Below are positions 38,320 through 58,909 of a stretch of 64,000 nt of DNA, piece by piece; position 1 is the first letter of the stretch; each line of letters starts with the position of its first letter. The notes under the pieces are model-generated. The model was not told where the DNA came from, searched no databases, and worked only from the letters and a program-made list of their open reading frames with translations. The position numbers and the translations under genes were made by a program. The DNA is taken from positions 3,882,412 through 3,946,411 of the forward strand of contig NZ_CP132335.1 of assembly GCF_030758295.1 (NCBI RefSeq), in the 5' to 3' direction. Source of the DNA: Pararhizobium sp. IMCC21322 (GTDB lineage Bacteria; Pseudomonadota; Alphaproteobacteria; Rhizobiales; GCA-2746425).

Positions 38320-38441
38320 GCGAAAGCCAAGCTTACGCATACCGGTTTGGAACACACCGATCAGCGCTGCCAGACTTGCCGCTGCGCATGAAAAAGCCTA
38401 GGCCATAGACCCTGTGGGTCTGACAAAGGCAAGAGGCATCA

Positions 38442-44082: not shown

Positions 44083-44323
44083 TATCCAATCACGTTCAAA
44101 TTTGAAAACAGTGAAAATGCCCAACCGCTTTTCTGTGCTTTGATCTATTAGATCGGCAGCACTTAAGCGGCACCTCCCAATTTTCTGGCTGAAACGACAA
44201 ACCTGCTTCTCATCAACTTGAGATCAGGCGCGTTTGTGCCGCCCACACCATCCGGACTGACCCATCCGGGGGATATTGCAGGACGCTGTCATGGTCCACT
44301 CTGGTTTTGGGGGAAAACCAAAA
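44083..44323 (+). promoter_or_regulatory. Leader/promoter region of the lanthipeptide operon
   Basis: This 241-base spacer separates metF from the precursor gene and must hold the promoter for the locus. A perfect 13-base palindrome gatcta-t-tagatc lies at 44142-44154. No terminator after metF and no convincing -35/-10 pair was seen. A run of G residues (ggggga at about 44309-44314) sits 9 bases before the ATG at 44324 and probably serves as its ribosome binding site. Confidence 0.4.
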
Positions 44324-44713
44324 ATGGAAAAGATCATGAACAAATCAAAATCCACAAGCGCCATACTGGCACTGGCGGTCGCTTTGCCAAATTTCATCAC
44401 GCCAGTGATTGCAGCGCAAAACACCGGCGCAACTGTTATGCCTGTCGCGGAAAAGCGTGTAGCGCCAACGCAGAAAATGCAGACCAAGAAGGCAGAGCCT
44501 GCTGAACTCAAAAAAATGCTGAACGAGGAACTTGAGAGAATGACACCTGCTGAAAAAAAGCAGATTGGTCAGGCAAGGATCAACCAGCTCAAAGCTCTTA
44601 CCGGAGATGAGATCGCACGCGGCGGATGCTTTACACAAGGTGTCGGTTGTCAGGGAACCAGTGGTTTTACCAGCGGTGTGCTCTGCTGCGTGATCATAAG
44701 GACCGGTATCTAG
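44324..44713 (+). CDS. lanA: Class II lanthipeptide precursor with Sec-like N-terminus
   Basis: A 129-residue precursor (125 if the ATG at 44336 is used). Residues 1-32 resemble a Sec signal peptide: basic MNKSKS, a hydrophobic stretch SAILALAVALPNFITPVIAA, then AAQ. Residues 33-97 form a charged, helical leader (AELKKMLNEELERMTPAEKKQIGQ). A double-glycine site ARGG is followed by a 28-residue core (102-129) with four Cys, four Thr and two Ser, starting CFTQGVGCQGTSG and ending CCVIIRTGI. A LanM gene is next, 140 bases downstream. The core and LanM make the assignment good. The signal-like start is unusual and may be an export signal or a false resemblance. Confidence 0.83.
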   Translation: MEKIMNKSKSTSAILALAVALPNFITPVIAAQNTGATVMPVAEKRVAPTQKMQTKKAEPAELKKMLNEELERMTPAEKKQIGQARINQLKALTGDEIARGGCFTQGVGCQGTSGFTSGVLCCVIIRTGI

Positions 44714-44852
44714 CCATTCCCTTTGACGATTTATGCGCCGCCGAAAGACCGCAAGCAGTTTTATTGCCGGCGCATGAAATCCTCTTGGCTCGTTGTGAGG
44801 TCAGGCGTCTTGGCGCTGGCCGGGCGAGCGTACCAAAAACCTGGACAAGAAG

Positions 44853-47819
44853 ATGACCTCCCAAAGCAATGCTGAGAATGTGAGTTTCGCAGAATGTGAA
44901 CGACACGCATCATGGGAAGTTTTTTTTGACGATGCATTTGCCAGCTCATCTGCGCAGGAACGCTATTCGCTACCTGGGGAAGGACGTGAATTCGCCCACG
45001 TTGCATGGCCGCTCATTGAGCTGTCGGCAAAACCAATCGGTCAAAAAATCACAGAACTTTGGCGACTCGAGATTATTGCCCCCGAAAACATAAGCTCCAT
45101 TTACGCTGCGATGGTCGCCACCCTTTGGGAGAGTATTTTTTCCAAGGTGTCGCGTTGTATTGTCATGGAATATGCCGCCGCGCAATCCACTGGCCTGCTT
45201 GATACAGACAGCGGCAGTGACAGCTACGCGATGTTTGCTGAATGCCTTCAGGATACGGAGTTTTCTGAAGCGCTCTTGAAACGCAATCCCCACCTGTGTG
45301 AATTGACGAGTGTCATATGCCAGAATTGGCGTTCCGCTTCATTGGAGTTTCTTGAGCATCTACATGCTGATTGGGGCACTCTCAAGCACCATTTCTCCTG
45401 TGCGCCTGACGATAAAATCACGTCCATCCAATCCTCATTGGGCGATACGCACCGCCACGGACGATCTGTTAAGATTGTTGAATTCAGCAGCGGGCAGAAA
45501 CTGGTCTATAAGCCACGCAGCCTGGCAGTTGAGGTGCATTACGGGCGTTTTGCATCCTGGTTCAACACCGCTGCTGGCGAAGAAATGATACGCTATGTTG
45601 ATGCGTTGAATATGGAGACACGCGGCTGGTGCGAACACATTGATCATCTGCCTGTTTCAGATGCAGATGGTCTTGCAGACTACTTCAAGCGGCTTGGGGC
45701 ATTAATGGCCGTAGCGCGCGTGCTGGGGCTAACCGACCTGCACAGTGAAAACCTGATTGCACAGGGCGATTGGCCCGTCATCATTGATCTTGAGACCCTG
45801 TTTCACCCGTTGGCTGGAGACCTGCGTCCGGATGACACCCAACCACCCGCCTCAAAAGCTCTGCGCAAAATCCATGACAAATCTGTTGCCGCAACAGGGC
45901 TCCTACCCATTCGCAAGGCCTTGTCGAATGCGCCTGACAAAGCAATCAATCTGGCTGGAATGTCCGACACGGCAGGCCAGAAGACACCATTTGAGGTGCC
46001 AATGTGGCACAATGCCGGATCCGATGAGATGCGGCTGGTGGAAGAGCATCAAACACTGACAGGCGACGCCAATGTCCCGGTGCTGGATGGTCAGAGAATC
46101 TCTCCCGAGCGGTATTTGGCACAGGTAATGGAGGGCTTTCGTAAAGCATATGCCATTCTTGAAGATAATCGGGAGACGCTGCTGGCAGCAACAGGCCCGC
46201 TTGCAGACTTTGGTGACGACCCGATACGCGTCGTCATTCGTGCAACCCAAACCTATTTGTTCCTGTTGGCTGACGGATCACATCCTGATCTTCTGGAAAG
46301 TCGGGAAAAGAAGGAGAGCTGGTTCAGTAATGCGCTAAAGGAAGCAAACCAGTCTCATATTCTGACAACACTGCGCCAGTCTGAAATGGCCGCCCTTTGG
46401 CGCAATGACGTTCCCTATCTTGAAACAACGGTGAACAGCCAGGATATCATGACATGCGACGGTCAGTTGATGGAACAAATTTTGCCACGGACGGGCCTGG
46501 CAATCACCCAAGAGATTATTGCCGAATTGGGTCCTGAAGATCTGCACCGCCAATGCTGGTTGACAGAAGTCGCATTGACGACGGCGGATCACCCGAAAGG
46601 GTTCCCGATTGCATCTACGAACAGCCACTCCTCCGGAAAGCTGCCTCAAAACGGCGTTCAAGAAGCTGCATTGGCGATCGCGCATCGCGCCGCAATGGAT
46701 ATTTGCGAGCACGCGATTATCACAGATGGACATGCAACATGGATGACTGTGCAGGAAGGGAGCGGTGGCGCTTTAACAGCCCAGTTAGCCGGTCTTGATC
46801 TGTATAGCGGCCTGCCGGGCATTGCTCTGTTTCTATCACGTGCCGGCCGCGTGCTTGATGATGCGCATATTCAGACAGTTGCGAAGGCAGCAGCATGTGA
46901 GCTTCTGTCTGCACTCTCCTTGCAAAAAAACACCGAGATGACAGTTGGCGGTTTTTCCGGAACCGGAGGCTTGTTTTTTGCGCTTCACATTTTGGCCAAT
47001 GAACACCCCGAGCTTGAGTGCGCTAAAGCCAGTCAGCAGATATTGTCGAACATCACCACCGTGGGGCTTTCTGCAGCATCTTTGGAATTGGTTGACGGTC
47101 TGGCAGGGCTGCTGCTCGGAGCCGGGCATATTCAATCCAGTGGCCCACTTCAAAGATCGATCTGCTACGAGATAATAAACAGGCTTGAGCAGGCGATTGA
47201 GAACAGGGGGTCAGTTCATCAGCTATTTGCCGCCACAGGAATGGCACATGGTGTTGAAGGTTTGCAATTCGCATTGGCCCGATCAAGCCAAAATAACGAC
47301 CACGAATTAAAGGTATTATGCGCTAACGCTCTTGGTCTGCTCAAGGAGCATGTACCAGCCGCGCCCGAATTTGAACTGAAAAACATCCAGGAAGCGCCAA
47401 TTGCATGGTGCAACGGTCTCACCGGAAATCTGTTCGCAAATGATGTAAGCGGGCAGGAACACGCGGAAACAATCGCTCGGGAACTGACTGCAAGACTGGA
47501 AGCGCAAGACTACTCAGATGACAGCCTGTGTCACGGTGCGATGGGCGCCCTTCAGGCACTACAGCATATGGTGCCCGCTCTGCCGGACGGCAATGCAGGC
47601 GAAATCGGAAGGCTGACAGAAATCGTCCTGACACGGTTGATGAAGAATGGCGCACAATGCGGCACCATCAATGGCGTTTTTTCCCCTGGCCTGATGGACG
47701 GCATGGCAGGCATCGGCATGGCAGCGTTGGGTATTGCAAACCAGCAGCCAACATCAGTGATACCACTCATGTCATACAATTCCGCGCCAAGAGCAACCAG
47801 CCGAGCGATAAGGCCATGA
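44853..47819 (+). CDS. lanM: Class II lanthipeptide synthetase LanM
   Basis: A 988-residue bifunctional enzyme that phosphorylates and dehydrates Ser/Thr in the precursor and then forms thioether rings. The kinase-like dehydratase domain (about 130-560) has Lys220 in LVYKPRSL, the DLHSEN motif (Asp295, His297, Asn300) and DLE (Asp312, Glu314). The LanC-like cyclase domain (about 640-970) has the zinc ligands Cys853 (AWCNGL), Cys893 and His894 (SLCHGAMG). Cyclase GxxG repeats (YSGLPGIALFLSRAG, GFSGTGGLFFAL) are intact. Length is normal for LanM. The last codons overlap the next gene by ATGA. Confidence 0.95.
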   Translation: MTSQSNAENVSFAECERHASWEVFFDDAFASSSAQERYSLPGEGREFAHVAWPLIELSAKPIGQKITELWRLEIIAPENISSIYAAMVATLWESIFSKVSRCIVMEYAAAQSTGLLDTDSGSDSYAMFAECLQDTEFSEALLKRNPHLCELTSVICQNWRSASLEFLEHLHADWGTLKHHFSCAPDDKITSIQSSLGDTHRHGRSVKIVEFSSGQKLVYKPRSLAVEVHYGRFASWFNTAAGEEMIRYVDALNMETRGWCEHIDHLPVSDADGLADYFKRLGALMAVARVLGLTDLHSENLIAQGDWPVIIDLETLFHPLAGDLRPDDTQPPASKALRKIHDKSVAATGLLPIRKALSNAPDKAINLAGMSDTAGQKTPFEVPMWHNAGSDEMRLVEEHQTLTGDANVPVLDGQRISPERYLAQVMEGFRKAYAILEDNRETLLAATGPLADFGDDPIRVVIRATQTYLFLLADGSHPDLLESREKKESWFSNALKEANQSHILTTLRQSEMAALWRNDVPYLETTVNSQDIMTCDGQLMEQILPRTGLAITQEIIAELGPEDLHRQCWLTEVALTTADHPKGFPIASTNSHSSGKLPQNGVQEAALAIAHRAAMDICEHAIITDGHATWMTVQEGSGGALTAQLAGLDLYSGLPGIALFLSRAGRVLDDAHIQTVAKAAACELLSALSLQKNTEMTVGGFSGTGGLFFALHILANEHPELECAKASQQILSNITTVGLSAASLELVDGLAGLLLGAGHIQSSGPLQRSICYEIINRLEQAIENRGSVHQLFAATGMAHGVEGLQFALARSSQNNDHELKVLCANALGLLKEHVPAAPEFELKNIQEAPIAWCNGLTGNLFANDVSGQEHAETIARELTARLEAQDYSDDSLCHGAMGALQALQHMVPALPDGNAGEIGRLTEIVLTRLMKNGAQCGTINGVFSPGLMDGMAGIGMAALGIANQQPTSVIPLMSYNSAPRATSRAIRP

Positions 47820-48100
47820 GAGTATCAATCATCATGATGTTAGCGGTTTTTTGGGGCCTGGTAACCATTACAGCGGACAAACAGGCAGGGGCAGCGGCCT
47901 GCAATCCCCTCACGGTCACGAGCAGCGGCACGGCAACGTCGCAGCGTATAGCTGTACGCAATGCAAAAGTATCGTTGATGGCACAATTGGAGGATCTTTA
48001 TCCAGGCGAGTTCAGATCAAGAATGATGGGACCAGTTGAATATGACTGCAAGAACCCATTATTGTGGCGGTGCGCGGCCAAGGTGAAAATCTGCAACTAG
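47816..48100 (+). CDS. Small exported four-cysteine protein coupled to lanM
   Basis: A 94-residue protein starting at the ATGA overlap with lanM. Residues 1-27 are a Sec signal peptide (MRVSIIMMLAVFWGLVTI, cleavage after AGAA). The mature part has four Cys, CNPLTV near its start and the C-terminal EYDCKNPLLWRCAAKVKIC, which could form two disulfides, and a helix-forming SQRIAVRNAKVSLMAQLEDLYPGEF. I recognise a general resemblance to small exported proteins of alphaproteobacteria but no named family. Coupling to LanM suggests immunity, a periplasmic partner of the lanthipeptide, or a second product. Confidence 0.7.
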   Translation: MRVSIIMMLAVFWGLVTITADKQAGAAACNPLTVTSSGTATSQRIAVRNAKVSLMAQLEDLYPGEFRSRMMGPVEYDCKNPLLWRCAAKVKICN

Positions 48101-48163
48101 CGGATTGGCAATCCGCCACCTTGTTAAATCAGGGCCTGCACTCAATTGGGAAGCGTCTGTGAC

Positions 48164-48676
48164 ATGAGCATCCAAGCCCCCGTATTGCGGCTGAAAAGAC
48201 CGTCTGAAATGCAGCCCTTCCGGTGGTCTGTTTTTCTGTTTTCACTTTGTGTGTCCGGTTCAGTCATGTTTGTGGTCGGGCTCACCATGGACAATGGGTT
48301 ACGCGTGTTCGGCATCGGAATTTCGTCCTGGTTCGACTCCTTGTGGGACTCGTTTCTCGGCATTTTTTTCGCGACCTTCATTGCACCGTTATTCTGGCGC
48401 ATTGGACTGGTCACATTTCCGCAATATCTGCTGGGCGCTTTTGCCTTGGCTGCGCCCATAACAATCGTATCGGTCTTGGTACTGTCGCGGTTTTATGATG
48501 TCAGAATTGAAGTGCCGGGGATTAATTCTTCAGCGTTTCCCGATCAATCATTCGCTATTTCCGCCTATGTCAGGCTTATCCGCGCCGTTGTATTTATTCC
48601 TGTTTTTCTCTGGGTGTTTTACTGGGTTTTTCACATTTGTTTTGGAATGGCGCCCAAGAGCTTCAAGCATGACTGA
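48164..48676 (+). CDS. Membrane protein of unknown function upstream of sensor kinase
   Basis: A 170-residue protein starting at ATG 48164. Four hydrophobic segments are visible: WSVFLFSLCVSGSVMFVVGL, FLGIFFATFIAPLFWRIGL, LLGAFALAAPITIVSVLVL and VVFIPVFLWVFYWVFHICFG. The loop between the third and fourth is polar. No family recognised. Its 3' end overlaps the kinase gene by eight bases, which points to joint expression and perhaps a shared sensing role or lanthipeptide immunity. Confidence 0.7.
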   Translation: MSIQAPVLRLKRPSEMQPFRWSVFLFSLCVSGSVMFVVGLTMDNGLRVFGIGISSWFDSLWDSFLGIFFATFIAPLFWRIGLVTFPQYLLGAFALAAPITIVSVLVLSRFYDVRIEVPGINSSAFPDQSFAISAYVRLIRAVVFIPVFLWVFYWVFHICFGMAPKSFKHD

Positions 48677-50564
48677 ATACGGCAAAAAAGCAGCGTCCAT
48701 ACGGTTTTCTCCGCAACTTCCCAAGAAGATATTTCTTCTCAGCCAGGCAGACCGTCCTGCTGAAATTAAACTGGCGCTACTTGAATCAGCGGTTTTTGAC
48801 GGTTGGATAGGTATGTTGATTAACATCAACACGGCCATATTTGTCGGGTTGATTGCCGTCACCGCAGGATTTGGCCCAATAGCTTCACTGACATTTTTGA
48901 CCGTGCAAATCATATTCACGATTATCGGCACCGTCATTTTGCTGTTCCTGCAAATTCGGCAGCAATCCAATCGTGCGGTTCAATCAAATATCGCGGAGCG
49001 GCTGATCATCTTTGCAGATTTGCTTGTGATGTTCGGTTGGGGATTTTGCATATTGTTGTTCATGTCGCCGCTGATCTATGAGCGCATGCTTCTGATCATA
49101 GTCTTGACGACGGCTGCGGGCATCGGCTCAGCGACTTTGAATTCGCGGCTTCTGCCTGCATTGATTCTGGGCCGCATCATTCTTTTTCTGCCCAGCATTG
49201 CGTATTGTTTCTGGGAGCAGCCCCCGTTCTGGGGCCTTCTGATTTGCACCTTGCTGTTTGCAACAATTGTTTCGATCGGCATTGGCTACGCCATCCACAT
49301 TCAGCACCTCAACGAAGCCAATCTTGCCTACAAATTGCGGGAAACCAGCGTGTTGCTTGAGCAACAATCATTCGCATTGGAGCGTTCGCTTTCCCAGGAA
49401 AATCAAGCGCAGGAGCGCGTGCTTAAGGAGACAAAACTTCGGGAAAGCTTTTTGCACTCGATCAGCCATGATCTCAGCCAGCCATTGAGTGCCCTTGGTC
49501 TCCACCTCAACAATCTGGCACATCAGCGCCTGCCAAGGGTTGCCGACGCTTCGACTGCTGCTGCCCAGCAGTGCCTGCGTTCGGCAAAGGGTCTTATTGA
49601 AAGCGTTTCGCAGTTGGCGTGGATCAAGGAAAACCTGCCTGCCCCGAAGCTTGAGAGTACAGATATTCATGCTCTGATCAGCAGGCTTGTGGACGAGTTG
49701 CGTCCGGTTGTCGAAGATGCAGGGTTGCAACTGACATATGTGCCCACATCGGTATTCGTGCGCGCTGATCCGGAGTTCCTGGAGCGGGTTCTGCGCAATC
49801 TCGCTTACAATGCGGTTCAATATACAGCCAAAGGGCGGATTTCAATTGGTGTCCGGCGACGCCCGGGAGGATTGGCTGAGATCATCGTCGCCGATACTGG
49901 ACTGGGTATATCGCCCGGTGAGCAACAACACATATTCAACGCATTCTATCAAATCGATGATCTCAGGGTGCGCCAATCCGGCAATGTCGGGCTGGGGCTT
50001 TCCATCGTCAGCGACTTGGTGAGCGCAATGCATGGCCGAATAACGCTTCAAAGCCACGAGGGCAAAGGCTCCCGATTTGGCGTTGTACTGCCTCTAGCTG
50101 CAGACACATCACAACTCCAGAGACAGGAATCCGAGGGTTCAGCAGCCGTCACAAACAGCGCCAGTTTGACCAAACAGCGTATATTGCTGGTAGAAGATAG
50201 CCTGCAGTATCAAACCAGCATCGCGGCCATGATTCAAAGTCTTGGTTACAACGTCGAAATCATTGGCGATCGATCTGAGATCATGGGCGTTTCGGATGAC
50301 CAGCTGAAAAACTGTGATTTTCTGATTGTGGATTTTGATTTGGGTGGGGGCCTGACAGCTTTTGATTTCCTGGCCCGGAGCTCCTCAAATCTGATGCCAA
50401 AATGTGTGATCATTTCGCAATATGCCAATCCAGACATGATACTTCACATCAAGGACCAGGGCGGGCGCTTTCTAAAGAAGCCATTTATGTCGGAAGACCT
50501 GGCAATGGCCTTGCGTGTTGTTGAAAAAAGCTGGCAACGAAACGACGACAGCACTGTCAGCTAA
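48669..50564 (+). CDS. Hybrid sensor histidine kinase with membrane sensor domain
   Basis: A 631-residue kinase. The ATG at 48669 overlaps the upstream stop. Longer starts at 48495 would run through the neighbouring gene. Six hydrophobic segments cover residues 45-215, a coiled coil follows, then HisKA with His267 (FLHSISHDLSQPLSALGLHLNN), an HATPase domain with NLAYNAVQYTAKG, ADTGLGIS and GNVGLGLSIV, and a C-terminal receiver with the likely phospho-acceptor Asp555 (LIVDFDLGGG) and Lys in FLKKPF. All catalytic motifs look intact. It is the likely partner of the convergent LuxR-type regulator. Confidence 0.92.
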   Translation: MTEYGKKAASIRFSPQLPKKIFLLSQADRPAEIKLALLESAVFDGWIGMLININTAIFVGLIAVTAGFGPIASLTFLTVQIIFTIIGTVILLFLQIRQQSNRAVQSNIAERLIIFADLLVMFGWGFCILLFMSPLIYERMLLIIVLTTAAGIGSATLNSRLLPALILGRIILFLPSIAYCFWEQPPFWGLLICTLLFATIVSIGIGYAIHIQHLNEANLAYKLRETSVLLEQQSFALERSLSQENQAQERVLKETKLRESFLHSISHDLSQPLSALGLHLNNLAHQRLPRVADASTAAAQQCLRSAKGLIESVSQLAWIKENLPAPKLESTDIHALISRLVDELRPVVEDAGLQLTYVPTSVFVRADPEFLERVLRNLAYNAVQYTAKGRISIGVRRRPGGLAEIIVADTGLGISPGEQQHIFNAFYQIDDLRVRQSGNVGLGLSIVSDLVSAMHGRITLQSHEGKGSRFGVVLPLAADTSQLQRQESEGSAAVTNSASLTKQRILLVEDSLQYQTSIAAMIQSLGYNVEIIGDRSEIMGVSDDQLKNCDFLIVDFDLGGGLTAFDFLARSSSNLMPKCVIISQYANPDMILHIKDQGGRFLKKPFMSEDLAMALRVVEKSWQRNDDSTVS

Positions 50565-51165
50565 GCCCGTGCGAACGCGCAAAATCTATCGCTTCAATAC
50601 GGTTTGCGACATCGAACCTTCGATAGATATCTCGCAGATGGGACTTTGTTGTTTCCGGTGAGATTGTCAACAGCCTTGCGACTTCCTTGTTTGACAGGCC
50701 CTTTGACACGAGAACGAGAATCTCCAGTTGCCGGGGCGTCAGTTCAAACCGTTTCGCCAACAAGGTGGTGGCAGGCGTCACATTGGCTGGAATCTTGCCG
50801 TTCAAAAGCGATGAAACAGCATCGACCAGAACGAGTGGATCCACTGCTTTGCTAAGAAAAAGATCTGCACCTGCATCCAGGGACTGACTCTCGTCAGATG
50901 GATTGATAGAGGCGCTCACAATGAGTATTTTGCAGGCTGGCAGATCGCCGGATAACTGCGCTATGAGGTCCGGCACATTGCATCCCGGAACATAGAAATC
51001 CATGATGACAAGATCGGGGCTGTTCGCAGAATCCTGCAACGCCTTCAATAACTCGCCAGCTTCATCAAAAGCCTTGCAGTCAATTTCATCGCTAATTGAG
51101 CCCAGCAAGAGCTTTAGTCCCGTCAAAAACAGCTTGTGGTCATCGAGCACAAAGACGGATTTCAT
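50557..51165 (-). CDS. LuxR/NarL-type response regulator
   Basis: A 202-residue regulator beginning at ATG 51165 behind an aaagg site. The receiver domain has the acidic pair Asp8-Asp9, phospho-acceptor Asp56 (DLVIMDFYVPG) and Lys in LFLSKAVDP. The C-terminal GerE/LuxR helix-turn-helix is LTPRQLEILVLVSKGLSNKEVARLLTISPETTKSHLRDIYRRFDVANRIEAI. Its 3' end overlaps the kinase gene by eight bases on the other strand. It probably answers to that kinase and may control the lanthipeptide promoter, but no site was identified. Confidence 0.9.
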   Translation of the reverse strand: MKSVFVLDDHKLFLTGLKLLLGSISDEIDCKAFDEAGELLKALQDSANSPDLVIMDFYVPGCNVPDLIAQLSGDLPACKILIVSASINPSDESQSLDAGADLFLSKAVDPLVLVDAVSSLLNGKIPANVTPATTLLAKRFELTPRQLEILVLVSKGLSNKEVARLLTISPETTKSHLRDIYRRFDVANRIEAIDFARSHGLS

Positions 51166-56057: not shown

Positions 56058-57257
56058 ATGGGACCCAGCATCACAATACTCGCGCTTGGCTATGTCATGA
56101 GCCAATTTTACCGCGCGTTTCTGGCGGTCCTTGCAGATGATCTCAGCAATGATCTGGGTGCCACGCCAACGGAGCTGTCGCTGGCATCCGGCGCATGGTT
56201 TGTCATGTTTGCGCTGGCGCAGTTCCCTGTGGGAATATGGCTTGACCGGTTCGGCCCACGACGGATGACAGCGGCACTCTTCACCTTTGGCGCAGGAGGC
56301 GGCGTTCTATGGCTAGCCCTTGCCACCACACCTGAGCACCTGATTGGGGCAATGGGCCTGATTGGAATTGGGTGTTCACCGGTGCTGATGGCGCCGATCT
56401 TCATATTTGCCAAAGCATTTCCAGCCGTGCGTTTTGGTCTTTTGTCAGCTTGGTTTGTTGCATTTGGCTCCATTGGAAATGTTGCCGGTGCAAAGCCGCT
56501 GGAACTTCTGGCCACTCAGTTTGGCTGGCGGTCCGTCATGTTCGGTTTGTTTGTACTGACCATCGCAATTGGTCTTGCCATTTACCAGTTTGTCAAAGAT
56601 CCGGTTCGGGAAACCACAGGCGACAATCCGTCAGATCGCGGCTCATTCCTCACGCTCTTGAAGTTGAAAGCTCTCTGGCCAATTTTTCCAATTATGGCCG
56701 TTGTCTATGCCATCCCTGCCGGGCTCAGAGGTTACTGGATCGCGCCCTATTTGTCGGATGTCTACGGTTTGGACTCAGCGGCAATCGGAACACTCACCTT
56801 GTGGATGGCACTTGCCATGATTGCCGGTAGCGTTGCATACGGTCCGCTCGATCGTTGGTCACCATCCCGCAAATGGTTGAATGTCTGCGGTGGCGCAATT
56901 GTGATTGTTTGTGTGTTTGTACTTGCAATCTGGACCGCTTCAAGCCTGTACCTGACCACCGCGATGCTTATTTTATGCGGATTTGCAGGTATGGGATATC
57001 CGGTGTTGATGGCCCATGCGCGCCAATTTTTCCCACCTCATGCGGTCGGACGTGGCGTCACGCTGCTAAATTTCTTTTCTGTCGGCGGTGTCGGTGTCAT
57101 GCAATGGACGACAGCAGCCATCATTCGCGATGAAACCATTCAGAACACACCAATTCACGCATTCCAGACCTTATTCTGGTTTTATGCTATCTGCCTGACT
57201 TTGGTTCTGGCCCTCTATCTAGCCGCCAAAGAGCGGCCAGAAGACGTTGCGGTCTAG
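56058..57257 (+). CDS. MFS transporter
   Basis: A 399-residue transporter with 12 hydrophobic segments. ATG 56058 is preferred over a TTG at 56034 because aggaag lies just upstream. The loop 2-3 motif (GIWLDRFGPRRMTAALF) and the central cytoplasmic loop (KDPVRETTGDNPSDRG) are typical of MFS. The family resembles sugar-phosphate/NarK-like alphaproteobacterial MFS, but the substrate is not identifiable. Its stop codon shares the palindrome CTAG with the stop of the convergent ettA gene. Confidence 0.88.
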   Translation: MGPSITILALGYVMSQFYRAFLAVLADDLSNDLGATPTELSLASGAWFVMFALAQFPVGIWLDRFGPRRMTAALFTFGAGGGVLWLALATTPEHLIGAMGLIGIGCSPVLMAPIFIFAKAFPAVRFGLLSAWFVAFGSIGNVAGAKPLELLATQFGWRSVMFGLFVLTIAIGLAIYQFVKDPVRETTGDNPSDRGSFLTLLKLKALWPIFPIMAVVYAIPAGLRGYWIAPYLSDVYGLDSAAIGTLTLWMALAMIAGSVAYGPLDRWSPSRKWLNVCGGAIVIVCVFVLAIWTASSLYLTTAMLILCGFAGMGYPVLMAHARQFFPPHAVGRGVTLLNFFSVGGVGVMQWTTAAIIRDETIQNTPIHAFQTLFWFYAICLTLVLALYLAAKERPEDVAV

Positions 57258-58909
57258 CGGGAAAATGGCTTGTATTTGATACGACGTGGATTTTCTACGG
57301 CGTCAGCTCCAAGACGACGCTTCTTATCTTCCTCATAGTCAGCGTAGTTGCCTTCAAACCACTCCACATGGCTGTCCCCTTCAAAAGCCAGCATGTGGGT
57401 CGCCAGCCGATCAAGGAACATGCGATCATGGGAAATAACCACGGCGCAACCGGCAAAATCTTCCAGCGCATCTTCAAGTGCGCCAAGGGTTTCGGTATCA
57501 AGGTCATTGGTTGGCTCATCGAGCAGCAAAACGTTTGAGCCTGATTTCAGCATCTTTGCCAAATGCACGCGGTTGCGCTGACCACCAGACAAAGACCCGA
57601 CCCTTTGTTGCTGGTCACCACCTTTAAAGTTGAAAGCACCAACATAGGCACGGCTGTTCATTTCATGCTTGCCCAGTTTGATAACTTCGTCACCACCGGA
57701 AATTTCTTCCCAGACATTCTTGTCCGCGTCCAGCGTGTCGCGTGATTGGTCGACATAGCCAAGCTTGATGGTTTCTCCCAATCGCACAGTGCCAGAATCA
57801 GGCTCCTCCTGCCCGGTAAGCATACGGAACAAAGTGGTTTTACCCGCGCCATTGGGGCCAATAACACCCACAATGCCGCCCGGAGGCAGATTGAATGACA
57901 AATCATCGATCAGCAGCCGCTCACCATAGCCTTTGGAAACACCTTCCATCTCAATAACGATCTGCCCCAGTCGTTCACCGGGCGGAATGAGAATTTGGGC
58001 TTGCCCCGGCTTGCGAGCTGCACTGCGTTCCACCAACTCATCATAGGCTTTGATACGCGCCTTGGATTTGGTCTGACGTGCTTTCGGACTGGCTGCTATC
58101 CATTCCCGTTCCCGCTCCAACGCGCTGTGACGGGCTTCATCTTCACGCCCTTCCTGCGCCATACGCTTGGATTTGGCATCCAGATAGGCAGAGTAGTTGC
58201 CCTCATAGGGAATACCATTGCCACGGTCGAGTTCCAGAATCCAGCCAGTCACATTATCAAGGAAATACCGATCATGGGTGATGATCAGTACAGACCCCTT
58301 AAAGGCGACAAGATGTTTCTCCAGCCAGGCTACTGTCTCGGCGTCCAGATGGTTTGTCGGCTCATCCAGCAGCAACAAATCCGGTTCTGCCAACAGCAAC
58401 TGGCAAAGAGCAACCCTGCGTTTTTCACCGCCGGAGAGATTTTCTACGGAAGAATCTCCCGGCGGGCAGCGCAGAGCTTCCATCGCCATTTCGACCTTGC
58501 TGTCCAGATCCCAAAGATCCTGGGCATCGATCATGTCCTGAAGCTTGGCGCCTTCATCAGCGGTCTCGTCAGAATAGTTCATCATCAGTTCGTTGTAGCG
58601 ATCTATGATCGCCTGCTTCTCTGCAACGCCTTCCATGACATTGCCCAGAACATCCTTGGATTCATTCAGTTCCGGCTCCTGGGGCAGATAGCCAATTTTT
58701 GCACCCTCTGCTGCCCACGCCTCGCCCGTATAGTCTTTGTCCAGACCAGCCATAATGCGCAACAAGGTCGACTTACCGGAACCATTTGGTCCAAGCACAC
58801 CGATTTTCGCATCCGGGTAAAACGACAAGTGAATATTGTTGAGCACCTTCTTGCCGCCGGAATAGGTCTTTGAAAGCCCGCTCATATGATAGATAAATTG
58901 CCGCGCCAT
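57254..58909 (-). CDS. ettA: Energy-dependent translational throttle protein EttA
   Basis: A 551-residue ABC-F ATPase with two nucleotide-binding domains. The first Walker A is GPNGSGKS (residues 40-47) and its signature is NLSGGEKRRVALCQLLLAEPDLLLLDEPTNHLDAETVAWLE. The second is GPNGAGKTTLFRML with SLSGGQRNRVHLAKML and LLLDEPTNDLDTETL. EttA-specific features are the MARQFIYHMSGLSKTY start, the arm between domains, and the C-terminal NPRRIKYKPFSR. It binds the ribosome E site and gates elongation by ATP/ADP. Its terminal CTAG is shared with the opposite MFS gene. Confidence 0.95.
   Translation of the reverse strand: MARQFIYHMSGLSKTYSGGKKVLNNIHLSFYPDAKIGVLGPNGSGKSTLLRIMAGLDKDYTGEAWAAEGAKIGYLPQEPELNESKDVLGNVMEGVAEKQAIIDRYNELMMNYSDETADEGAKLQDMIDAQDLWDLDSKVEMAMEALRCPPGDSSVENLSGGEKRRVALCQLLLAEPDLLLLDEPTNHLDAETVAWLEKHLVAFKGSVLIITHDRYFLDNVTGWILELDRGNGIPYEGNYSAYLDAKSKRMAQEGREDEARHSALEREREWIAASPKARQTKSKARIKAYDELVERSAARKPGQAQILIPPGERLGQIVIEMEGVSKGYGERLLIDDLSFNLPPGGIVGVIGPNGAGKTTLFRMLTGQEEPDSGTVRLGETIKLGYVDQSRDTLDADKNVWEEISGGDEVIKLGKHEMNSRAYVGAFNFKGGDQQQRVGSLSGGQRNRVHLAKMLKSGSNVLLLDEPTNDLDTETLGALEDALEDFAGCAVVISHDRMFLDRLATHMLAFEGDSHVEWFEGNYADYEEDKKRRLGADAVENPRRIKYKPFSR

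Follow-up and report, generated by a model that had tools for sequence, protein, structure and literature searches.

How does a lanthipeptide precursor leave the cell when no dedicated exporter is encoded beside its modifying enzyme? This question is raised by a class II lanthipeptide locus of Pararhizobium sp. IMCC21322, a member of the Rhizobiales, in a stretch of 64,000 nucleotides that we call the window (positions 3882412 to 3946411 of the 5.25-Mb single-contig genome). The locus is a cassette encoding, in this order, the precursor peptide, the lanthionine synthetase LanM, a small exported protein, a membrane protein, a hybrid histidine kinase, and a convergently oriented LuxR-type regulator. 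A preliminary description of the same DNA had pointed out that the exporter LanT is missing and had left its absence unexplained. Here, we describe a signal of the type used by the general secretory (Sec) pathway at the N terminus of the precursor, a feature missed in that description and a possible explanation for the lack of LanT. We propose, with a probability of roughly 0.6, that in this class II lanthipeptide cassette the general Sec pathway takes the place of LanT; both the rings of the product and its export are inferred from the sequence. Coordinates refer to the window, and features lie on its forward (+) strand unless stated otherwise.

LanM and its precursor peptide

The protein encoded at 44853-47819 (988 amino acids) is, by its domains and motifs, a complete class II LanM, in agreement with the preliminary description. 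It matches the Pfam families DUF4135 (PF13575, 365 bits) and LANC_like (PF05147, 123 bits), the latter being the sole match to this family in the genome at E <= 0.001, and it scores 641 bits against the lanti_2_LanM model TIGR03897, well above the cut-off of 304. The closest solved structures by sequence are LicM2 (6st5, E = 3e-66, residues 90-971) and CylM (E = 2e-43). Alignment with LicM2 shows retention of the motifs LGDTHRHG, DLHSENLIA, DLETLF, RVVIRATQTY, AWCNG, and SLCHG, which we take to be the catalytic and zinc-ligand motifs.

The putative precursor is encoded by the open reading frame (ORF) at 44324-44713 and comprises 129 amino acids, or 125 if translation starts at the second methionine (position 44336 instead of 44324). 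It is 91% and 76-77% identical to its counterparts in G003 and G002, respectively, two genomes of the same genus that carry the cassette. Three parts can be distinguished by alignment and by the ratio of nonsynonymous to synonymous substitution rates (dN/dS): the N terminus MNKSKSTSAILALAVALPNFITPVIAAQ (residues 1-31, 44324-44416), a more variable leader ending in ARGG (residues 32-101, 44417-44626), and the core CFTQGVGCQGTSGFTSGVLCCVIIRTGI (residues 102-129, 44627-44713 including the stop codon). In all three species, the leader joins the core as ARGG followed by Cys, and four Cys, four Thr (104, 112, 116, and 127), and one Ser (113) of the core are invariant. A lanthipeptide-type precursor with a GG site had been recognized earlier, and both the junction and the Cys/Ser/Thr-rich core agree with this assignment. 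The protein matched no Pfam family above the cut-off and no NCBIfam family, and a search of PHROGs and Pfam returned nothing convincing.

Counted from the second methionine, the N terminus has a net charge of +2, a basic n-region, and a V-I-A-A-Q end, and its first 30 residues include no acidic residue in any of the three species. The hydrophobic stretch reaches a Kyte-Doolittle 12-residue mean of 2.09 to 2.31 in all three, residues 15-34 of the ORF are invariant among them, and a signal peptidase site is likely after A30 or A31. For the three species pairs, dN/dS of residues 1-31 amounted to 0.04, 0.11, and 0.07, with few changes counted; that of the core was 0.03-0.08. The low values in residues 1-31 imply that this segment is made as part of the protein and kept by selection at the amino acid level. 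Its make-up, its conservation among the species, and the selection acting on it give good support, at the level of sequence, for a putative Sec-type signal.

Precursors of other LanM loci served as controls. LanM was found at 19 places outside the genus, 16 of which were inspected (L025-L034, L050, and L058-L062; L009, L019, and L021 were left out). At 11 of these, a precursor was recognized by eye (L025, L028, L031, L032, L033, L034, L050, L058, L060, L061, and L062), that of L058 being the least certain and the starts at L028, L033, L058, and L061 being set by eye; none was recognized in this way at L026, L027, L029, L030, and L059. Nine controls were scored, all except L025 and L062, the latter being closely related to L061. 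The N termini of these nine are acidic or mixed and nonhydrophobic (-0.58 to 1.22), and a Sec-type signal is missing in all nine. For the precursors beside seven plasmid LanM genes (L069-L075), the annotation alone was consulted.

At L025, located in the genome G658, an ORF lies divergent from LanM at a distance of 63 bases and begins with MSNNRLFSFLGAVLATPSLTASMAPAMQ, with a hydropathy of 1.78. It contains 28-residue repeats with one Cys each (as in TNTDIPECHSPSMGAKGSGATGFGTAPR), of which three copies were seen at a spacing of 84 bases, 79% identical to the reference copy, before the contig end cuts the ORF. This looks like a possible multicore precursor with a Sec-type signal and is a candidate substrate of the adjacent LanM. 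Homology of its leader to that of the window was only suggestive (BLASTP E = 0.14). A profile comparison gave E = 0.012 and 3.7% probability over 24 columns (MLNEELERMTPAEKKQIGQARINQ versus ALKAEMLGLSPAEKLAIAGDRLGS), and the score of a local alignment, which covered a segment other than that of the profile comparison, was reached by 49 of 5000 shuffled sequences. The similarity is weak, and we do not claim a shared leader family. Among the 10 genomes searched from its family, which also make up the set searched from its order, G658 alone has a LanM match at E <= 1e-30. On a different contig from LanM, G658 also encodes a stand-alone C39 peptidase of 197 amino acids with a hydrophobic N terminus and a catalytic-type Cys (WDTSCGAAAM), situated between a gene for a GG-motif peptide (MDGVVGG) and a gene that weakly matches outer membrane proteins (region L041:71-2116). 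A periplasmic double-glycine peptidase of this type would suit a Sec-exported GG precursor.

The missing exporter and possible routes of export

In class II lanthipeptide systems, a LanT with a C39 domain is typical but not obligatory. Pfam was searched with 30 proteins encoded between 27.9 and 63.9 kb, namely 28 of 31 ORFs with a length of 90 amino acids or more and two smaller genes, covering 16 kb on each side of lanM and 12.8 kb beyond the cassette end. Among these proteins, no LanT or other C39 exporter, no LanFEG, no LanP or subtilase, and no match to MNIO enzymes (DUF692) was detected. The reported lack of LanT, LanFEG, and LanP in the cluster thus extends to 16 kb on either side of lanM. 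Two ABC proteins occur in this range: one of the ABC-F type, with two ABC domains and an ABC_tran_Xtn linker (57254-58909), and the ATPase of an oligopeptide transporter, whose ORF is truncated where the window ends. A genome-wide search for a C39 transporter, suggested in the preliminary description, yielded one match to PF03412 (Peptidase_C39) at E <= 0.001, a 720-amino-acid HlyB-like exporter encoded elsewhere, at 1.13 Mb, beside an HlyD-like gene; its first 145 residues include no Cys. In the cassette carriers G002 and G003, no PF03412 match was obtained at this threshold, in genome-wide searches limited to exporters with a C39-like domain. Of the other genomes with LanM, six have strong C39 matches (G261, G429, G557, G654, G711, and G530, Cys unchecked), and G386 and G658 have weaker ones.

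According to our proposal, cytoplasmic LanM would dehydrate Thr and Ser residues of the core and close small thioether rings. Possible ring spans between conserved residues are T104-C109 (6 residues), T116-C121/C122 (6-7 residues), and T112/S113-C121/C122 (9-11 residues). The precursor would then pass SecYEG post-translationally, signal peptidase I would cleave after A30 or A31, and a hypothetical second envelope protease would cut at or near GG. The envelope would be the place in or from which the peptide acts. The membrane protein, kinase, and regulator may detect the peptide or protect the producing cell, and they may govern expression of the operon.

Several points speak against this proposal. 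In the accessible part of PMC5686179, Sec export of nisin failed in Lactococcus lactis, and Sec-fused precursors combined with NisBC or ProcM were displayed largely unmodified. As far as this part of the study goes, rings and Sec may therefore conflict. The hydropathy of the signal lies around the upper quartile of 62 window ORFs, a set that includes membrane proteins (75th percentile, 2.14), with G002 just below it at 2.09. The exact cassette is carried by three species of one genus, and the G658 case is one ORF cut by a contig end. G295 and G741, two further LanM genomes, also have no PF03412 match, and the precursor of G741 has an ordinary acidic leader; hence, a missing C39 domain alone does not point to Sec. 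With regard to the rings, proOmpA with a disulfide loop of about a dozen residues reportedly passes Sec when the membrane is energized. By this comparison, it can be argued that the proposed lanthionine rings would be small enough for Sec.

Alternatively, the hydrophobic N terminus might remain uncleaved and anchor the precursor close to a LanM bound to the membrane, so that the product would stay inside the cell or in the inner membrane without Sec export. Such an anchor would account for the missing LanT and spare the rings the passage through SecYEG, but the invariant c-region TPVIAAQ fits a signal peptidase site by the usual rule, and a basic n-region in its usual orientation would place the core outside anyway. 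We regard an anchor as improbable, even though, according to the accessible part of PMC5686179, modification took place on a membrane-tethered peptide whose C terminus lay in the cytoplasm. It is likewise improbable that the hydrophobic stretch is incidental and that export relies on an unlinked exporter, for instance of the HlyB type encoded at 1.13 Mb. The genome does possess this HlyB/HlyD-like pair; however, the carriers G002, represented by one contig with a completeness of 100, and G003 have no PF03412 match at E <= 0.001, and exporters of the HlyB type read C-terminal signals, which a core of 28 residues would hardly offer. Some weight for an unlinked exporter comes from a gammaproteobacterial class II cluster that adjoins hlyBD and for which a periplasmic leader peptidase was proposed, as stated in the available part of PMC7691419.

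A different question is what the peptide does. It might mainly be a modified and exported autoinducer read by the hybrid kinase and not an antimicrobial, which would be compatible with Sec export. Joint inheritance of the kinase, the membrane protein, and LanM, a core nearly invariant between species, as for a ligand with a fixed receptor, and the lack of LanFEG among the 30 proteins scanned favor such a role. Yet lantibiotics that kill are usually under two-component control as well, and we consider a predominant signaling role unlikely, though worth keeping in view. By contrast, it is very improbable that LanM and the precursor are remnants of a decaying locus after loss of its exporter, as the missing LanT could suggest, because all three species keep the cassette ORFs open and purifying selection acts on the precursor.

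It is tempting to extend Sec export to a more general notion, namely, that ringed lanthipeptides are exportable by Sec in nature. Alphaproteobacterial precursors with Sec-type signals would then include the single-core form of the window and the tandem 28-residue one-Cys cores of G658, and no C39-type LanT was found in the four genomes concerned. We hold this notion tentatively, at somewhat less than even odds.

The cassette and its distribution

All six ORFs named in the preliminary description were recovered, those of LanM, the kinase, and the regulator with domain matches. The small exported protein (47816-48100) has a hydrophobic N terminus and a predicted beta-alpha-beta-beta domain (predicted local distance difference test score [pLDDT] of 70) with four Cys in its mature part. 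A fold search with this model gave nothing at E <= 0.001, loose matches including the YbiO channel and dodecins; the protein presumably resembles members of a widespread, unnamed alphaproteobacterial family of small exported proteins. Four long helices are predicted for the membrane protein (48164-48676), whose model is too poor for use (pLDDT of 46); it may be an immunity or sensing partner. Searches of PHROGs and Pfam gave nothing convincing for either of these proteins. The start of the gene for the small exported protein overlaps the stop codon of lanM, and the start of the kinase gene overlaps the end of the membrane protein gene, suggesting a single operon. The G+C content of the cassette genes is 49-53%, compared with 52% in the window.

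The membrane-bound hybrid kinase (48669-50564, with a start codon of our choice) comprises HisKA, HATPase, and receiver domains; the nearest NCBIfam model is of the NahK/ErcS type, matched at 210 bits and hence below the cut-off of 400. The convergent gene at 50557-51165 on the reverse (-) strand encodes a LuxR/NarL-type response regulator according to Pfam and NCBIfam. Together, the two proteins probably control the operon. Two-component systems (LanRK) are usual for lantibiotics. Therefore, this part of the gene set, which had been described as atypical, is less unusual than suggested, although the combination of a hybrid kinase with a NarL/LuxR-type regulator is, to our knowledge, an unusual form. 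In two related genomes of the same phylum, LanM (L061:6216-10975 and L062:8595-13372) adjoins a kinase/regulator pair that appears RegB/RegA-like by eye, and a small upstream ORF ends with CTTTMSVVNHCLCC in L061 and CTTTVSVINHCLCC in L062.

Upstream of the precursor gene, 45-66 bases 5' of its start, lies the conserved block TGACCCATCCGGGGGATATTGC of 22 bases (44258-44279), with two variable columns among the three species, which may be a promoter or regulator site. With up to 3 mismatches allowed, the window contains this block once, versus 0.00 expected. A sigma-54 promoter was considered for this block and rejected, as the spacing does not fit by eye. At 44295-44327, the 5' region of the precursor mRNA can be folded as a hairpin in the three species, with a GGGGG ribosome-binding stretch near the loop and the start codon at the base. 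None of its 12 consensus pairs is changed on both sides, and two are broken in one sequence.

G003 and G002 share the cassette order of the window between the same neighbors, an MTHFR gene and azoreductase plus amidase genes. Whether related loci conserve the gene set had been posed as a check, and both indeed retain the small protein, membrane protein, kinase, and regulator, in genomes without a PF03412 match at E <= 0.001; a LanT, which might have lain a few kb outside the cluster, was not found within 16 kb of lanM. Both outcomes support the preliminary description. At E <= 1e-60, LanM and the kinase are present together in three of the five genus genomes and missing together in the other two. 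The small exported protein was found in 3 of 382 order genomes, all of them cassette carriers. Identities to G003 and G002, respectively, are 81% and 72% for LanM, 91% and 73% for the small protein, 97% and 89% for the membrane protein, 92% and 86% for the kinase, 93% and 85% for the regulator, and 100% and 97% for the MTHFR protein. Thus, LanM, the precursor, and the small protein diverge faster than the MTHFR or membrane proteins, with the kinase and regulator being intermediate. Elsewhere in G003, about 2.7 kb lie between a cupin and a hydantoinase gene (L010:879-3555), compared with 0.1 kb in the window (38320-38441).

The LanM of the window had matches in 6 of 397 order genomes, 8 of 385 class genomes, and, at a stricter cut-off, 6 of 398 phylum genomes; the genome of the window itself is part of each count. 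Although the order and class counts are lower bounds, as the query was one protein, they are in line with the earlier remark that class II systems are uncommon in alphaproteobacteria. A 26-row LanM tree placed the LanMs of the window and its relatives outside a supported group holding 15 of the 18 other proteobacterial rows. The remaining three (G658, G853, and G1022) likewise fell outside this group, as did the rows from cyanobacteria, Streptomyces, and Lactococcus, with an unsettled branching order and a weak base. A 22-row tree, from which four rows had been dropped, was similar, and a clade of the window and G658 LanMs was neither supported nor rejected (approximately unbiased test, p-AU of 0.49). 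The position outside the main proteobacterial group suggests a transfer from afar, for which we name no donor.

Searches beyond these genomes added little. In plasmids, tblastn with LanM matched 191 records, all less than 60% identical, and the precursor matched two records at E = 4; the small protein, the membrane protein, and the G658 precursor had no match there. Viral contigs searched with the LanM and precursor alignments gave no match. Genome contigs searched with the LanM alignment and scanned with two short peptide patterns only returned four loci, i.e., two genus relatives, G658 again, and a cyanobacterial LanM whose precursor is of the ordinary acidic GG type. When 372 class genomes were searched with the precursor profile, the window was matched along with two weak places, in G701 (E = 1.3e-6, inside an 806-amino-acid open frame of an inspected locus) and G045 (E = 0.0038), both of which we take to be chance. 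In a Rhizobium plasmid (L069) and a Mycetohabitans megaplasmid (L073), LanM-like genes are clustered with YcaO, TfuA, and ThiF/MoeB or MoaD genes. At least the one rhizobial LanM match inspected, L069, therefore belongs to a mixed azole-type cluster and not to a simple lanthipeptide locus.

Comparison with known systems

Lanthionine rings are regarded as difficult to reconcile with Sec export, and a natural class II precursor with a conserved Sec-type signal and without LanT makes this question directly testable. One can ask what sizes of ring go through SecYEG and whether LanM acts before or after SecA. If our proposal is true, it would offer a simple export route for LanM-modified peptides in Gram-negative laboratory hosts. 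In the main text of the lanthipeptide mining papers PMC7268733 and PMC11251773, the words "signal peptide" do not occur, and among literature titles and abstract openings, a scope outside which most subscription papers fall, we found no lanthipeptide precursor with a Sec signal.

The closest precedents are cinnamycin and the bufferins, and PMC12452194, in its accessible part, cites enterocin P and cinnamycin for suggested Sec signals. For cinnamycin, signal peptidase I was proposed to remove the leader (PMC12837462 and PMC2843593, in the parts available). The cinnamycin leader is cut at the AxA site (AFA), whereas in the window the junction is GG and the Sec-type signal precedes the core by about 70 residues. 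According to the same part of PMC12452194, bufferins are the only ribosomally synthesized and post-translationally modified peptides with Sec export shown in the natural host. The putative Sec signal at the N terminus of our precursor would correspond to theirs, but bufferins are copper-binding, are modified by MNIO enzymes instead of LanM, and have a Sec signal that replaces the typical leader, while here the leader follows the putative signal. The class II lantibiotic of Wenzhouxiangella AB-CW3 is likewise encoded by a Gram-negative LanAM locus with a proposed periplasmic leader peptidase; however, it adjoins a type I secretion system (hlyBD), the proposed exporter of the peptide, and the accessible part of that report does not mention a Sec signal (PMC7691419).

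Class II lanthipeptides of the lacticin 3147 and lichenicidin type share with the window a LanM composed of DUF4135 and LanC with a Cys-Cys-His zinc motif, a GG leader, and a core containing Cys, Ser, and Thr. They differ from it in that LanT, LanFEG, and LanP were not found near lanM here and in that the precursor carries an N-terminal Sec-type signal. By its enzyme, the locus is a class II lanthipeptide system, and it is in export, with a putative Sec-type signal and no LanT found nearby, that it departs from the usual form.

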